From the IMG/VR virus record IMGVR_UViG_3300028394_000085, positions 1 to 58,661 of that record: 58,661 nucleotides of DNA, one strand, 5' to 3'. Positions 1 through 58,661 of the stretch are shown piece after piece. The position numbers and the translations under genes are program-made. The DNA is from a virus. The notes beneath the pieces are model-generated. The model searched no databases, was not told the origin of the DNA, and worked only from the letters and a program-made list of their open reading frames with translations. Within the stretch, counting starts at the first letter, position 1. Each line of letters opens with the position of its first letter.

Positions 1-70
1 CCTAAGAAGTAGTATACTAACCCTAGTTGTAAAAGAAGGCAGAGATTCTGCTGGACGGGTGCAACTAGAG
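1..70. repeat. Terminal overlap, left copy
   Basis: The first 70 bases match the last 70 bases (58592-58661) except at two positions (59 G versus A, 63 A versus G). It contains the last codons and stop of the proteasome-like gene that is complete at the right end, plus a promoter element. This is seen directly and shows that the contig closes on itself. The two mismatches point to population variants or read errors at the join. Confidence 0.95.
12..28 (+). promoter_or_regulatory. Promoter/operator-like element
   Basis: TATACT (12-17) is followed by AACCCTAGTT (19-28), a variant of the 10-mer found at many promoters in this genome. Here the 10-mer lies downstream of the -10 box rather than upstream, so it may act as an operator at the transcription start. 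It precedes the accessory gene at 80. Confidence 0.5.
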
Positions 71-37881: not shown

Positions 37882-38524
37882 TACTTTTTCTTTCTTGGAT
37901 AATCCATGGTATCCATCCACTTTGGGTCATCAGCATCTAATTCTTCAAACTCTTCTTCAGAATCATCTTTGTAGGGAACAAAATTTTGTTTACTGTTTTT
38001 TGGCTCTGATGAATCTTCACCTTCGGAGTCATCACCATTACGCCAAGAACCATGACTTGATTGGTCATGGTCGCCGTGCTTTTCAAGTATTACTTTTTTT
38101 TTAGTGTTGAGACCTTATGTCCAACTTTAGTATCAGTTGGTTTACCATCACGATATAAAACAATTAACGCGGCTGGGTCATCTTCTGAGCCTTCAATTTC
38201 AAATGATGAATCAGGAACATTGATTTTACCTGAGCGTTCAATTCTTAAAACTTTACCCTCCGCTGTTCCACCTGATGCGCTCCATGAAACTCTATCTCCG
38301 ACTGAAACATTTTTCTCAAATGCTAATAGTTTGCTTTCTATTGCTTTGTTAATCTCTCCACCCATTAGGCGTATTGCTCGTTGAACTGTTGATTTTGCGT
38401 AACCACTAAGTCCGTTAAAACCAAACTTTTTTACATCTTCTTCAATCATTTTGAACTCGTCCTCGTCCATACCAGCCAAAGGTCCTTTGCGAAGTTCCGC
38501 TAACATCCGTGAATCTTTTTTCAT
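37881..38524 (-). CDS. Frameshift product: HVA1-like domain plus KHGDHDQSSHGSW tag
   Basis: At the 3' end of the 144-residue gene the sequence is CTA AAA AAA AAG TAA. A -1 slip on A AAA AAG continues as GTA ATA CTT GAA AAG CAC and gives a 70-residue extension carrying the tag EKHGDHDQSSHGSW (residues about 148-161), an acidic region and PRKKK at the end. The extension has no start codon of its own and is open only from a TAA at 38115-38117. The full product would be 214 residues. A homopolymer read error is the alternative. Confidence 0.7.
38043..38081 (-). repeat. Tag copy 1 (KHGDHDQSSHGSW)
   Basis: Encodes KHGDHDQSSHGSW in the -1 frameshift extension. Reverse-strand sequence is nearly identical to the copies at 42731, 44189 and 44633. 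Confidence 0.9.
38090..38524 (-). CDS. DUF2945/HVA1-like small protein
   Basis: 144 residues in frame 0. The C-terminal half (VSVGDRVSWSASGGTAEGKV, SEDDPAALIVLYRDGKPTDT) matches the Tudor/SH3-like DUF2945 (HVA1) pattern. The N-terminal half is helical. Start overlaps the protease stop (ATGA). Translation probably stops at TAA 38090-38092 most of the time. Confidence 0.7.
   Translation of the reverse strand: MKKDSRMLAELRKGPLAGMDEDEFKMIEEDVKKFGFNGLSGYAKSTVQRAIRLMGGEINKAIESKLLAFEKNVSVGDRVSWSASGGTAEGKVLRIERSGKINVPDSSFEIEGSEDDPAALIVLYRDGKPTDTKVGHKVSTLKKK
38093..38099 (-). promoter_or_regulatory. -1 frameshift slippery heptamer A AAA AAG
   Basis: Reading the minus strand, A AAA AAG (38099-38093) is phased exactly as the E. 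coli dnaX site and is followed at once by the 0-frame stop TAA. It sits within a run of nine A residues, so transcriptional slippage is also possible. An SD-like stimulator upstream is not obvious. Confidence 0.7.
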
Positions 38525-39252
38525 ACGGTTTCTACTTTCTTTGGTTTTTTCTTTGACGGTGACATTATTGTATCAACATGTACATCGGATACAGTTGGGT
38601 CGTTCTTTTCTAAGTCTATATCAACGAATAAACGCTCTGCTTTACCACCAATTGAATAGCCACGAATCTTTCCTTCGGTAACCATGTTCCATGCCCAAGG
38701 CTCCCAAATGACACCAAGAAAAACTGTATTAGGTGGATATGTGTGTTCTAAATCTTGACCTTCAGGTGTTTTAATTGGAACTGTTAATGAATATGGGAAA
38801 GCCATAACTTCTACCCATTCTCCAGCAACTACATCTCTATTGTGTTGTAAACGAATACGACGGTCATTGCTTTTTACATAATCCCAAACTGCTCTTTGTA
38901 ATTCATCTGAATCTGTCCACTCTCCATGAGCATCTTCCATATCAGGGATATACATAGCACCTAGGGTGTAACGCTTTTCGCCCTCGGCTTTTTGTAAATC
39001 AAACTTACCTAACGCCTTTGTAGTCTCCTCTGTGAATACATCAGGAAAAATTTGACGGGCTACTTCCTCGGTAACTTCTTGGAACTCGCCTTCGCCTTGG
39101 GTTAAATAGCGGACGACATCAGCATCGGGATTATCCATCCAACTCTTAGTACGAATATCCCATCTATCTTCAACCATGGCTGTTTCTCCACGCTCAAAAC
39201 GATAAATGTTTATCGCCTCGTTATCTGCGCCTAGTTTTGCAAAATATCGCAT
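38521..39252 (-). CDS. XkdF-like prohead serine protease
   Basis: 243 residues from ATG 39252, preceded at 8 nt by GAGGAGGT. Residues about 85-215 carry LGAMYIPDMEDAHGEWTDSD, a catalytic-type His in RIRLQHNRDVVAG and Ser in KIRGYSIGGKAERL, matching XkdF-type prohead proteases that process scaffold and internal proteins. It has its own promoter inside the end of the upstream gene. Confidence 0.82.
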   Translation of the reverse strand: MRYFAKLGADNEAINIYRFERGETAMVEDRWDIRTKSWMDNPDADVVRYLTQGEGEFQEVTEEVARQIFPDVFTEETTKALGKFDLQKAEGEKRYTLGAMYIPDMEDAHGEWTDSDELQRAVWDYVKSNDRRIRLQHNRDVVAGEWVEVMAFPYSLTVPIKTPEGQDLEHTYPPNTVFLGVIWEPWAWNMVTEGKIRGYSIGGKAERLFVDIDLEKNDPTVSDVHVDTIMSPSKKKPKKVETV

Positions 39253-40748
39253 ACGGCTGTACCTCCTCTCGTTATTCTCCACATTATATCAACCCCCGTT
39301 GATTTTACCAAACCTGCTTGTTGAGCGGTCTCAAAAGTCTGCGTTACAAGCGTTCCGATGGTCAGCAGTTTTGCCATGTTTGCTGGTCTAGGGATTGCTT
39401 TAGCCTTGTCTACCATTCTGTCCCACATTGCTTGGCGCTCTGTGTTATTTGTAGATTTTCGATACACCTCGTAGTCATCGTGTAAATCTACTTCTTTGAC
39501 TTTGTGAGAGGTTGGAGTATGAAGTTGTAGTTCTACCTTGACGCCATCTTTACTCAACTTGATATTAGTGCCATCGTAAGGGTCACCTGCTTGCCAAAAG
39601 TTTTTAACCGATTCAACTTTCCAACCAGTTTGTTCTACCGCGTTGATTGTTTTTTCAACACCGTCTGCATAATTATTATCATCAACATTGAGTGTATAAC
39701 GAACCGCATCAGAGATTGCGTTTGCCGCTTTCTCTCTATCGCCGCGATGGTCTTTCTCTGCATCGGCATCAATTTTGCGAGCGAGTGAATCTGTGGACTT
39801 TAATCTTTCTGTAAGCGAACTCTTGCCATCGATTTCAGGAAAATCAGCGCCGATTGTTTTTGCAATACCTTCCATCAATCCAGTAATAACTGGCTCGACT
39901 GCCTCGGCATCTTTTCTTAATCTTTGGGCTTCTCTAATGGCTTCTTTAGATTGTCCTTGTTTGGGAGCAATATCAGGTGCCATAGCGGGGCGACCAGTCG
40001 AACCCTTATCTTCTCCACCGCTAGTTCCAGTAGCCCAACTTCCATGTGCGGATTGGTCACCATCTCCGTGTTTTTTAACTTCGTTTTCATATTTTTCCAC
40101 CATTGATTCTGCCCAAGCGAATCCAGCATCTCCGCCCCAAGCGTCCCATGACACTCGACCAGCGCTAGGGAATCCTTTTTCACCACGATTAAATCCGAGG
40201 GCTTGTCCATCAACTTTATGTCGAGAAAGAAAAGATTTCATTCGTTTCAAGGTTTCGATAGAAACACTTTCACCACGGGCTAATTGACCCGCTCTAGTTC
40301 TACCGACTGAAGTAAATCCACCGCCAGCAAAACCTTTATCAATCCATTCAATTGCTCGTTGCGCCGCATCTCTTACTGATTGAGGAGGAGTAAAACTATC
40401 CTCGGCTTTTGCAACTTGCTCAATTCGCATTTGATAACCATTGACAGTAAAGAAAGTTTTGATGTTACCCACGGTATCGCCCGTTGATTTGATTACATCT
40501 AGGACTGTCTCGGCTGGCAATCCAGCAATTGAGGTTAGGTCTACATCATCGATTGAATCAATTAGAATCTCGTAATTATCCCAATCATCCTTTGGGCGTT
40601 CCATCTTGCGTCTAGCCATCTCATTAAGAATGGTGTGATGAACCTCGATTTCAGCCGAGGAGGGAGACGCTGATTTATGGACATTCGTGTGGAGCGCGAG
40701 TAGTTCCTCAGCGCTTAGATGAATTAGTTTGGGTGCAATATCCGCCAT
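39231..40748 (-). CDS. Tagged cargo protein with RelA/SpoT-like C-terminal domain
   Basis: 505 residues. Residues about 115-222 form a phage module (FTSVGRTRAGQLARGESVSI, WDAWGGDAGFAWAESMVEKY) seen in head-gene regions. The tag KHGDGDQSAHGSW is at 226-238. The C-terminal region about 370-470 (VESVKNFWQAGDPYDGTNIK, VKVELQLHTPTSHKVKEVDL) resembles RelA/SpoT-like nucleotidyltransferase toxins linked to MuF. The last ~20 residues translate the next gene's promoter and ribosome site. The start has no ribosome site. It is likely an ejected or capsid-internal effector (inference). Confidence 0.75.
   Translation of the reverse strand: MADIAPKLIHLSAEELLALHTNVHKSASPSSAEIEVHHTILNEMARRKMERPKDDWDNYEILIDSIDDVDLTSIAGLPAETVLDVIKSTGDTVGNIKTFFTVNGYQMRIEQVAKAEDSFTPPQSVRDAAQRAIEWIDKGFAGGGFTSVGRTRAGQLARGESVSIETLKRMKSFLSRHKVDGQALGFNRGEKGFPSAGRVSWDAWGGDAGFAWAESMVEKYENEVKKHGDGDQSAHGSWATGTSGGEDKGSTGRPAMAPDIAPKQGQSKEAIREAQRLRKDAEAVEPVITGLMEGIAKTIGADFPEIDGKSSLTERLKSTDSLARKIDADAEKDHRGDREKAANAISDAVRYTLNVDDNNYADGVEKTINAVEQTGWKVESVKNFWQAGDPYDGTNIKLSKDGVKVELQLHTPTSHKVKEVDLHDDYEVYRKSTNNTERQAMWDRMVDKAKAIPRPANMAKLLTIGTLVTQTFETAQQAGLVKSTGVDIMWRITRGGTAVCDILQN
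39283..39300 (-). promoter_or_regulatory. Promoter embedded in the upstream gene
   Basis: Minus strand: AACGGGGGTT (39300-39291; inverted form of the element), GA, TATAAT (39288-39283), then AACGAGAGGAGGT and ATG 39252. TTGGTA sits 17 bp upstream of the -10. It drives the protease gene and overlaps the last codons of the 505-residue cargo gene. Confidence 0.75.
40035..40073 (-). repeat. Tag copy 2 (KHGDGDQSAHGSW)
   Basis: Divergent copy of the 13-residue tag, placed between the N-terminal phage module and the RelA/SpoT-like region. Followed by ATGTSGGEDKG, a flexible linker. Confidence 0.88.
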
Positions 40749-48138: not shown

Positions 48139-48413
48139 GCTACATACCTTTCGTTCGTTATTGGTTTGGCGATTATGTTTAGTTGTTTTCTCATTCTGTC
48201 GCGTTCTTTAGTAGATTTTCCACCCCAAATGCCGACTACTTTGTAATGTAACGCATAGGTCAGACATTCTTCTTTCCAATAGCATCCATCACAAATCTTC
48301 TTTACTTTTCTGTTCTCCTCGGTTATCTGATTCTTCTCGGGAAAGAAATAACTCGTCTCTATTCCCCAACAACTCGCTCCCTCGAATTTCCAAGGCATCA
48401 TAATTTTCTTCAA
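48135..48413 (-). CDS. whiB-like: WhiB-like regulator B
   Basis: 92 residues from a TTG at 48413 preceded by GGAGAGG; ATGs at 48401 and 48398 are alternatives. Four Cys for an Fe-S cluster occur as ASCWG, CDGC and EECL, and GIWGGKSTKERDRMR is the WhiB turn and basic end. WhiB proteins bind the vegetative sigma factor in actinobacteria and change promoter choice. FFPE after the first Cys is typical. Its first ~40 codons overlap the other WhiB gene out of frame. Confidence 0.85.
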   Translation of the reverse strand: MKKIMMPWKFEGASCWGIETSYFFPEKNQITEENRKVKKICDGCYWKEECLTYALHYKVVGIWGGKSTKERDRMRKQLNIIAKPITNERYVA

Positions 48414-48669
48414 TGTTTTCCTCTCCAACAATTAGTCGATAGGGGGAAGAGGCATCTAACTTAGCCACAATTCTTCCATTGCGCCATACCTTGCCAGCAA
48501 CTACACCATCATAAAAACTTGGCTTAGGCTTTACTAGAGAATCACACTCTTCCCAAAAAATACATCGGGAACAATAATTAAGTGCTGGTTGTACTAAATC
48601 TAAATTAAATTGGTCAAAGAGCCAAGGGTCAGCATCACGGCACGGCGCTTTAGATGCAAATGAACCCAT
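48289..48669 (-). CDS. whiB-like: WhiB-like regulator A
   Basis: 126 residues. KAPCRDADPWLFDQ, NYCSRCIFWEECDSL supply the four Cys; DGVVAGKVWRNGRI replaces the usual G-V/I-W-G-G turn and is degenerate. An acidic tail of about 50 residues overlaps the start of WhiB B out of frame by about 125 bp. May act on host or phage promoters. Confidence 0.78.
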   Translation of the reverse strand: MGSFASKAPCRDADPWLFDQFNLDLVQPALNYCSRCIFWEECDSLVKPKPSFYDGVVAGKVWRNGRIVAKLDASSPYRLIVGEENIEENYDALEIRGSELLGNRDELFLSREESDNRGEQKSKEDL

Positions 48670-56376: not shown

Positions 56377-57300
56377 ATGGAACATGCAATTCTTGTTCAT
56401 TCGCCTGAGTATGCGAACTGGGTTTTTGACCCGACGCATCCAACTCAAGGGCGACGCTTCCTCCATGCCCGAAATCAATTGCTTCTGCGAGCGCAAGAAC
56501 GCCATCTCAATGTCTATGAGATTGAACCGCAGATGCCACACACCGATGACCTTCATTCTGTTCATAATATGGATTATGTTTACGATGTAACTGTTCGAGG
56601 GGAATCAACGGAGTGGAGCGGACAACGCCACGACTTAGGCGAGTTAGCCAAGTTATTCGCTGGCGGTACTTTGACTGCCCTAGATTCTTTGATTGATTAC
56701 AAAACTAGATTGGCTGTTCACTTCGCTGGTGCAAAGCATCACGCGATGCGTGATTACTCCAGCGGTTTCTGTATCTTCAATGACTTTGCTATTGCCGCTA
56801 CTAAAGCGACAGAAGAGTACGACCAGCGTGTAGCCATCTTTGATTGCGATGCTCACCATGGCGACGGTACTGAAATGCTATTAAAGAAGAATAAGAATGT
56901 TATGACTTATTCAGTTCATGAGTATGGAATTTTTCCAGGCACGGGTTTGATGAGCGATTGGAAACACCGCGCCTATAACTTCCCGCTTGCATCCAAGTCG
57001 GGTGATGACGCCTTGCTATCTGCTACTGAGGGATTTCTTCAGGCTTGCAATGAATTCCAGCCTACGATGATTTTTGTTGCCTGTGGCGCCGATGCTCTAA
57101 AAAATGACCCGCTCTCATCCCTTGAGTTCACCAAAGAGGGTTACTTCGAATCCATGCGGATGATTAGAGAGCAATACTTTGACCATCCAATTCTGCTCGG
57201 TGGAGCAGGTGGCTACCAGCCTGACACGGAAACCCCTGACCTATGGGCGACAGTTGCGCTTGGACTTATGGCGGTTCAAACCGAGGTTGTAAAACCCTAA
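56377..57300 (+). CDS. Histone-deacetylase-family (acetylpolyamine/AcuC-like) hydrolase
   Basis: 307 residues, start ATG 56377. HDAC-fold motifs are intact: tandem His in GAKHHAMRDYSSGF (121-122), zinc ligands in FDCDAHHGDGTE (Asp158, His160) and CGADALKNDPLS (Asp239), and the catalytic Tyr in LLGGAGGYQP (Tyr280). The family removes acetyl groups from lysines, polyamines or other amines using zinc. The substrate in a phage is unknown; polyamines for DNA packing or host proteins are options. Confidence 0.88.
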   Translation: MEHAILVHSPEYANWVFDPTHPTQGRRFLHARNQLLLRAQERHLNVYEIEPQMPHTDDLHSVHNMDYVYDVTVRGESTEWSGQRHDLGELAKLFAGGTLTALDSLIDYKTRLAVHFAGAKHHAMRDYSSGFCIFNDFAIAATKATEEYDQRVAIFDCDAHHGDGTEMLLKKNKNVMTYSVHEYGIFPGTGLMSDWKHRAYNFPLASKSGDDALLSATEGFLQACNEFQPTMIFVACGADALKNDPLSSLEFTKEGYFESMRMIREQYFDHPILLGGAGGYQPDTETPDLWATVALGLMAVQTEVVKP

Positions 57301-57317
57301 CCGTTACGCTTGGTGCT

Positions 57318-58040
57318 ATGAATCCACCAAAAAAACTGCTGACCCAAAACAGCGAACTAAAACCTGACGGAATTTTTAACTGGACTCTACCTGCCTTTGC
57401 CGTAAAATTAACAGATGGAAGTAATTTTAATGTTTGCCCGCAAGCAGGAGCCTGTGCAAGTTTTTGTTATGCAAGAAATGGGACTTATCTGTTTCGCAAT
57501 GTGCGCTCGCGCCATATCTTAAATCTTGAATATGTAATGCACTACCCCGAACAATGGTTTGAGCAGATGTTGGGCGAAGTGCAAAAGCCAAAGATGATTG
57601 GTAAACATATTCGAATTCACGATGCTGGAGATTTCTTTTCTGAGGATTATCTAAACCTATGGTTGAGGATGGCTCGTTTAACTCCCGATGTAACTTTCTA
57701 TTGCTACACAAAGGAAGTCGCTTTGTTTAAGAAAGTTGTTGAACCTGATTGCCCTGCGAACTTTCGTTATCTTTACAGTATGGGTGGTAAGCAAGACCAT
57801 CTCATCAATAAAGAAACTGACCGCCATGCTGAAGTCTTTCCTGATGACGCCGCTATTTTAGATGCAGGTTACATGAGCCAAGATGCCAGCGACCTGTTAG
57901 CGATTACTTTACCTAGCAACAAAATTGGCATACCAGCCAATAACATTAAGCATTTTAATAAGAAACTTGCAGGTCGTACCTTTGGTGATGTCCAAGATGA
58001 ACTTGATGAAAAACGACGAGTCAAACTCGGTGGTGCATAG
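57318..58040 (+). CDS. GP88-like protein
   Basis: 240 residues from ATG 57318 (the frame starts earlier inside the HDAC gene). LLTQNSELKPDGIFNWTLPA, CPQAGACASFCYARNGTY and IRIHDAGDFFSEDYLNLWLR are the conserved core of the GP88 family from mycobacteriophages. The Cys cluster C-x5-C-x3-C suggests a metal or Fe-S site; activity unknown. Coupled to the Ntn-hydrolase gene by overlap. Confidence 0.88.
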   Translation: MNPPKKLLTQNSELKPDGIFNWTLPAFAVKLTDGSNFNVCPQAGACASFCYARNGTYLFRNVRSRHILNLEYVMHYPEQWFEQMLGEVQKPKMIGKHIRIHDAGDFFSEDYLNLWLRMARLTPDVTFYCYTKEVALFKKVVEPDCPANFRYLYSMGGKQDHLINKETDRHAEVFPDDAAILDAGYMSQDASDLLAITLPSNKIGIPANNIKHFNKKLAGRTFGDVQDELDEKRRVKLGGA

Positions 58041-58603
58041 TGACTACGATTATTGCTGTTCAATATGATGACAAGGCAGTAATCGGAGCAGACTCACAAA
58101 CAACTGGTGCAACAGGGCGCAAAGCCTCTCATGCACAAATGGTTAAGGTAACTCAACGCGGAGATTTTATTGTCGCTGGTTCGGGTGAATGTGCGCCTTG
58201 CGATATTGCTCAACATATTTGGGTTCCTCCAGTTCCCTCCGCAAAGGACTGGAATAACCTTTATCATTTTATGATTGCCAAAGTTGTTCCATCTCTTAAG
58301 GCTTGCTTCAAAGAGAACGAATACAAATGGGATGTAGAAGATGATGAAACTAAATTCGCTTTCCTGATGATTATTGGCGGAGAGATATTTGAGATTGCAG
58401 ATGACTTTTCTGTTTGCCTAGATGGAAAAGGTTACTACGGAGTAGGGTCAGGTTCAGATTTTGCAATAGGCGCACTCAGCGCTGGAGCAACTCTCAAAGA
58501 GGCTCTAAAGATTGCTTCAGATAACGATGCCTTTACATCTCCACCGTTTATTTACCACACGCAACAAAAGCGTCAGAAGGTTGTAACTCGACCTAAGAAG
58601 TAG
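58040..58603 (+). CDS. Proteasome-beta/HslV-like Ntn hydrolase
   Basis: 187 residues from a GTG that overlaps the previous stop. After Met removal the N-terminal Thr (TTIIAVQYDDKAVIGADSQT) would be the nucleophile; Asp17 in GADSQ and a Lys in MVKV fit the catalytic set, with GSG near 47. GVGSGSDFAIGALSAGATLK is the second family signature. Such subunits assemble into peptidase rings. Actinobacteria have proteasomes, so a host mimic or inhibitor is also possible. The stop lies in the terminal overlap. Confidence 0.85.
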   Translation: MTTIIAVQYDDKAVIGADSQTTGATGRKASHAQMVKVTQRGDFIVAGSGECAPCDIAQHIWVPPVPSAKDWNNLYHFMIAKVVPSLKACFKENEYKWDVEDDETKFAFLMIIGGEIFEIADDFSVCLDGKGYYGVGSGSDFAIGALSAGATLKEALKIASDNDAFTSPPFIYHTQQKRQKVVTRPKK

Positions 58604-58661
58604 TATACTAACCCTAGTTGTAAAAGAAGGCAGAGATTCTGCTGGACGGATGCGACTAGAG
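58592..58661. repeat. Terminal overlap, right copy
   Basis: Matches 1-70 with two changes. Here position 58650 is A, giving ATG in place of GTG at the possible upstream start of the left-end gene. Confirms circular closure. Confidence 0.95.

Follow-up and report, generated by a model that had tools for sequence, protein, structure and literature searches.

Fuchs, Alva and Lupas described 22 new homologs of the proteasome in 2021, and in their classification group I comprises HslV, BPH, AAH, CPH, PPH, RPC and DPH (PMC8665760). As described there, PPH is a protein of about 140 residues without helix H2, BPH possesses a long acidic loop after its second helix and apparently uses no unfoldase, and connectase, a monomeric ligase within the proteasome homologs, demonstrates that the chemistry of the family can change (PMC8665760). 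The authors describe AAH as commonest in Actinobacteria but could find it in no actinophage, and for the new homologs they report few functional clues and no informative gene neighborhoods (PMC8665760).

The proteasome fold, its phage members (phrog_1040 and PPH), actinophage copies deposited under 'protease' names and a few phage genes of the HDAC family were already known. Here, we describe a proteasome homolog encoded in the window, the whole 58,661-nucleotide stretch of viral DNA that was analyzed (Table 1). What is new is a distinct clade of freshwater actinophage proteins on the AAH side of group I and the recurrent pairing of their genes with a gene of the HDAC family; the open-licence literature yielded no study of AAH in actinophages or of an HDAC gene paired with a proteasome homolog.

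Table 1. Positions of the features discussed in the text, numbered along the window
Feature	Position	Strand	Evidence or remark
Group I proteasome-homolog gene, predicted Thr peptidase	58040..58603	+	Sequence, conservation, AF2 model, profiles, tree
GP88-family gene (PF17338), between HDAC and proteasome homolog	57243..58040	+	Optional in relatives
HDAC-family Zn hydrolase gene, 317 aa	56347..57300	+	PF00850 E 7.5e-58, PDB HDAC matches
WhiB-family match	48192..48383	-	51.1 bits, cut-off 23.6 (six-frame search)
Peptidase_S78_2 (XkdF-like) putative head maturation protease	38521..39282	-	E 9.2e-11, over cut-off
Terminal near-repeat of window 1-70	58592..58661	.	68/70 identical; two ends differ at two bases

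The proteasome-homolog gene and its predicted product

The gene encodes 187 amino acids and begins with a GTG, the sole start codon of its frame, which overlaps the stop codon of the preceding ORF by one base. Its product matches phrog_1040 ('peptidase HslV family', E 4.6e-29), and the Pfam proteasome family (PF00227) aligns with residues 2-49 only, slightly under the curated cut-off (20.2 vs 22.4 bits). A tblastn search found matches in 163 of 50,697 phage records (E <= 1), and viral contigs yielded 428 relatives, 80 of which were kept. When the window gene was compared with 10 relatives, dN/dS was 0.043-0.104 in all 10 computed pairs, with synonymous change near saturation in the most distant. 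The gene is under strong purifying selection; this, together with the phrog_1040 match and the viral relatives, indicates that the ORF is real rather than a chance reading frame.

The alignment of 83 rows (70 distinct) comprises the 80 viral loci, the window copy, and the copies of phages DSL-LC01 and Pitbull. Thr2, Asp18 and Lys36 are invariant in every row, Thr2 corresponding to mature Thr1, Asp18 to Asp17, and Lys36 being aligned to Lys33. Gly49, Ser137, Asp163 and Thr166 are likewise invariant in 83 of 83 rows, and from the alignment we assign them to the Gly47, Ser129, Asp166 and Ser169 positions of the family. All 83 proteins begin with MTT, and no start codon lies further upstream in the window ORF. 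The first-pass annotation had proposed that the catalytic Thr, Asp and Lys are kept and that no propeptide precedes the Thr beyond Met, and both proposals agree with the alignment. Conservation is concentrated in segment 46-64 (AGSGECAPCDIAQHIWxPP), in which 15 of 19 columns are invariant compared with 63 of 187 overall (24 sequences). Seven acidic residues lie at positions 92-104, after the second helix. The two cysteines of the ECAPC motif (window 58190-58201), beside the active-site helix, are kept in 80 and 81 of the 83 rows and may have a disulfide or metal role.

An AlphaFold2 model built from 24 sequences (pLDDT 82.4, pTM 0.79) contains both first helices; a C-terminal H5 helix was not seen in it. 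Residues 27-34, which adjoin the presumed catalytic Lys, fall below 50 pLDDT, and the assignment of that Lys therefore rests on sequence alignment and not on geometry. The best PDB match in Foldseek was BPH (5ovs, E 1.1e-9), as was the best PDB match by sequence (E 0.0016). Structural alignment with VIA-align gave Z 17.5 with BPH 5ovt (rmsd 2.8, 166 residues aligned), Z 16.7 with HslV 4hnz (rmsd 3.2, 161 residues) and Z 15.9 with the Mycobacterium tuberculosis proteasome chain 3mka (rmsd 3.0, 166 residues). Since rows no more than 1 Z apart were counted as tied, and the proteasome-family chains among the 50 matches listed were nearly tied at Z 15.5-17.5, the fold is proteasome-like but no single family is picked out. 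The equivalents of Thr1, Asp17, Lys33 and Gly47 in a proteasome-like fold place the protein in the proteasome-like (group I) superfamily. The initial identification of a proteasome-beta-like hydrolase is thus borne out by an ORF of the extent proposed and an Ntn fold that matches BPH, HslV and proteasome beta subunits. The evidence supports a conserved N-terminal Thr hydrolase that is probably active.

Placement beside the AAH family

Cellular AAH-like genes were collected from plasmids and genomes (185 relatives in genomes, 80 kept); the genome relatives come from rhizobia, Azospirillum, Streptomyces, Frankia, Actinomadura, Paenibacillus and others. These loci (L088-L172) are called AAH here by taxa and sequence rather than by comparison with the sequences of PMC8665760. 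In profile-profile comparisons the window clade scored 165 with the other actinophage copies, 134 with D'Alembert/pT24, 129 with AAH and 97 with PPH, followed by BPH (67, from two partial chains), HslV (57), PrcB (42, over 44 columns) and PrcA (22).

A maximum-likelihood tree was computed from 53 proteins, with PrcA and two Azospirillum rows left out and a sample that does not include CPH, RPC or DPH. The window clade is monophyletic (100/99) and adjoins the copy of Planktophila phage E7 (97/76). A branch with support of 98/88 unites the window clade, the other actinophage copies and cellular AAH, and leaves BPH, HslV and PrcB outside. The copies of E7, DSL-LC01, Pitbull, Pumpernickel and WaterT belong to the same assemblage as the window clade. 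Branches are long for several phage rows, a row from an Erwinia phage groups with Pitbull, and the PPH rows do not form one group; the fine order within the tree is therefore unsure, and the long branches lower the certainty with which membership in the AAH-side assemblage is read from the 98/88 branch.

Comparison with each described family leads to the same placement. The window protein resembles cellular AAH in size, in its Met-Thr start, in the T1/D17/K33 equivalents, in a profile alignment of 173 columns and in its nearby position in the tree. It differs in sequence identity (24-29%), in having GECAPCDIAQHIW where the AAH rows share SFRMGQLL, and in retaining Asp163, which the cellular AAH rows do not keep. 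A strict AAH identity was rejected, as the protein lies outside the clade of cellular AAH rows and SFRMGQLL is missing. With the phrog_1040/PPH proteins of Phapecoctavirus and other phages it shares the PHROG, the superfamily and its carriage by phages, but PPH identity was also rejected: the protein has 187 residues, both helices are present in the model, its tree position is elsewhere, and the PPH profile score is lower than that of AAH. BPH (5ovs/5ovt/5ovu) is alike in being the best match by structure and by PDB sequence and in its acidic loop, but shares 18-24% identity and occupies a separate branch. HslV identity was rejected on the NCBIfam model TIGR03692 (20.9 vs 157.75 bits), the tree position and the lack of a PF00004 match in the window, and PrcB (20S beta) identity on TIGR03690 (14.0 vs 191.9 bits), the tree position and the absent propeptide. 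As judged by sequence comparison, the product is a group I proteasome homolog from a clade of phage proteins next to AAH. The viral loci and named actinophages that carry such proteins fill, on the AAH side, the gap left by the 2021 survey, whose authors found AAH in no actinophage (PMC8665760).

The deacetylase neighbor and the copies in other phages

The first-pass annotation did not mention a conserved deacetylase neighbor. The HDAC-family protein scores 196.6 bits against a PF00850 cut-off of 27.9 and possesses the catalytic His pair, the Zn ligands and the Tyr, namely His131, His132, Asp168, His170, Asp249 and Tyr290, whose roles we assign by correspondence with those of HDACs. Among 57 aligned rows, His131 and His132 are present in 48 (the others being gaps), Asp249 and Tyr290 in 55, and a single row has Ala at His170. 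The listed start of the GP88-family gene overlaps the HDAC gene, and an alternative start at 57318 lies 17 nt past the HDAC stop.

Of 80 viral loci, 56 carry the HDAC gene 5' of the proteasome homolog; among the 70 loci whose upstream sequence exceeds 1 kb, the count is 49. Where HDAC was present and GP88 had no match, the HDAC gene ended 9-45 nt before the proteasome homolog in 29 of 31 loci. By comparison, the ORF that lies downstream in the window was directly 3' of the homolog in 3 of 80 loci, some of which are short; gene order is therefore kept upstream and not downstream. The pairing is not obligatory: HDAC is missing upstream in 21 of those 70 loci, and of 15 large viral records (52-62 kb) 10 have it and 5 do not. 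The recurrence upstream of an HDAC with an intact zinc site suggests that the two proteins form a functional pair. A recurrent deacetylase partner is a genomic context of the kind that the 2021 survey did not find for its new homologs (PMC8665760).

This neighbor, together with the strong constraint on the pocket segment, would also fit a non-peptidase Ntn hydrolase or a connectase-like ligase of narrow specificity, and the deacetylase would then serve the same small-molecule or protein-modification pathway; connectase itself shows that such a change of chemistry can occur (PMC8665760). We consider this reading unlikely, as the peptidase residues are kept, including the Asp166-type Asp163, and the solved structures nearest in fold are those of peptidases. 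The substrate of the deacetylase may likewise differ. The neighbor belongs to the fold family of Rhodococcus phage E3 gp202, the product of Microbacterium phage Magritte gene 204 and viral acetylpolyamine amidohydrolases (APAH). The viral APAHs characterized in PMC9992855 come from Imitervirales, and by analogy they make a polyamine substrate a live alternative. HDAC-family genes were found in 8 of 50,697 phage records; our guess is that the Staphylococcus ones may be bacterial contamination. In three records (G006, G354 and G355, those of loci L044, L055 and L052) the HDAC matches cross one stop codon, possibly 5' of the true start.

Homologs also occur in the Planktophila phages LanE43AprE7 and F5 (OX376640/1), in DSL-LC01, Pitbull, Hum25, Pumpernickel and WaterT, and in their relatives. 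The copies in named actinophages were deposited as 'protease' or 'ATP-dependent protease subunit', or without annotation. Among the matches listed (the best 60 of 163 records), the closest named homologs are those of OX376640 (40% identity) and OX376641 (39%); both records carry the label 'Caudovirales sp. ct2KA10', and OX376640 is without annotation. The first two phages of 'Ca. Nanopelagicales' to be cultured include LanE43AprE7 (PMC10202952). Because cultured Planktophila LanE-43 is available and its phages E7 and F5 carry a homolog, the role of the protein is testable.

The E7 copy (L326, 7500-8036) lies directly 3' of the portal gene, ahead of genes for a scaffold-like and a major head protein. 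The position immediately after the portal is a common site of the head protease. A role as a head-maturation (prohead) or virion-associated protease is therefore to be weighed: a scan of 10 E7 proteins turned up no separate head protease, and in L064, L068 and WaterT portal or terminase is at most a few kb from the homolog. In the window, however, an S78-type candidate already stands among the head genes (Table 1), and the homolog is on the strand opposite to them, adjoining HDAC and GP88. In addition, a capsid maturation protease is annotated in Arthrobacter phage Kovu, the closest of the named phages when portals are compared, and Kovu is not among the best 60 of the 163 records that match the homolog. 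Overall we regard this role as improbable; given the S78-type candidate it is unlikely in the window phage, and it is possible for E7. In E7-type viral loci, the window HDAC was matched in 0 of 80, with flanks of up to 3 kb. For the Pitbull copy, a scan recovered only three related loci. In other loci (L049, L050, L058, L062, L063, L065, L070, L072 and others) the homolog lies between small membrane (holin-like) and lysin-like ORFs, the latter visible where the flank reaches, and in a further context it is, by our reading, just 5' of terminase.

Host and proposed mode of action

The proposal that the virus is an actinophage was confirmed by the WhiB-family match (Table 1). Pfam detected no WhiB in ORF 48289-48669, and the match lies in another frame. 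WhiB matches were present in all 18 further records searched (15 records that contain relatives from the 80 kept loci, Planktophila phage E7, DSL-LC01 and Kovu), 16 of them over the cut-off, and among 14 control genomes Corynebacterium alone exceeded it. Portal and terminase are closest to those of Arthrobacter phages (57% and, for the large terminase, 52% identical to Kovu). The G+C content is 39-46% in 4 kb windows, no tRNA genes were found, and a promoter scan returned 5 candidates against 6.5 expected. PADLOC gave no defense-system match for the 5 proteins submitted.

We infer that the host belongs to the order 'Ca. Nanopelagicales'; freshwater actinobacteria of the Planktophila kind are abundant in lakes worldwide (PMC10202952). 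The best cellular match of the HDAC protein is in a 1.5 Mb actinomycete genome, G144 (49% identity, E 1.8e-79; next best E 3.6e-33), on a contig that we read as chromosomal, and 228 of 296 actinomycete genomes match. The HDAC gene was rejected as a pointer to a single host: because the other 28 of 29 window ORFs tried found no match in the 60,000 of 61,172 contig bases covered, the G144 match is only suggestive of the host.

The first-pass annotation had argued that Actinobacteria carry 20S proteasomes and that the phage subunit might mix with host rings. In a survey of 60 genomes from the order of G144, in which drafts may be incomplete and the link from order to host is indirect, the premise held for larger genomes, 39 of 42 above 2.0 Mb carrying prcB/prcA-type genes, but mostly failed for the small ones: of 18 genomes of at most 2.0 Mb, 15 lacked these genes. 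A small-genome actinobacterial host, if the host is of that kind, may thus have no 20S proteasome to mix with. A scan of genome contigs with A1 gave no match. Profile A4, used to search for cellular AAH, matched in 34 of the 60 genomes, with the listed rows at PrcB places except one ORF (G321:C337); its top score, 52.7 bits, came from the PPH profile, and its contig has, by our reading, phage-like ORFs. Mixing with, or poisoning of, host proteasome rings is favored by the fold family common to the homolog and the host subunits and by the frequency of these genes in larger genomes. It is nevertheless highly improbable: the homolog is far from PrcB by profile and tree, the small genomes mostly lack prcA/prcB-type genes, and the intact catalytic residues speak against a simple decoy. 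The suggested incorporation into host 20S rings is therefore unlikely, and a homo-oligomeric, unfoldase-independent Thr peptidase would be the more likely form of the protein.

The account that we prefer, with moderate confidence, is a catalytically competent group I N-terminal-Thr hydrolase of a freshwater actinophage clade that is homo-oligomeric, independent of an unfoldase and co-expressed with the HDAC-family protein. The host methionine aminopeptidase would remove Met and expose Thr1, and the subunits would then most likely build a homo-oligomeric ring, single or double. The analogy with BPH and HslV makes a ring of phage subunits plausible. The acidic loop after the second helix could serve as a pore element. 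Unfolded or specific polypeptides would be cut without a dedicated phage AAA+ unfoldase; PF00004, the AAA family scanned, had no match in the window and none over the cut-off in 15 related viral records, and the sole carrier of a Walker A motif among 76 window ORFs is the terminase. The substrate pocket is likely to be constrained rather than suited to loose degradation, because the conserved segment 46-64 covers the oxyanion Gly and the first helix. The gene probably forms one operon with that for the HDAC-family deacetylase, and the two products would be made together and act on host or phage proteins during infection. A more elaborate form of this proposal, in which the HDAC strips lysine acetyls and the unfoldase-independent phage ring destroys or trims the substrates, reprogramming hosts among the small-genome actinobacteria, most of which lack a proteasome, is speculative and in our estimation unlikely.

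Finally, the near-repeat joins the two ends of the record, and the related locus L004 reads through the joint. The record thus closes into a circle, so that the proteasome-homolog gene does not lie at the end of a genome. Past the joint, the next long plus-strand ORF spans 59-967, and the first stretch beyond it also has minus-strand genes matching phrog_3704 ('ferredoxin') and a staphylococcal-nuclease-like protein (1958-2608 and 1563-1958).
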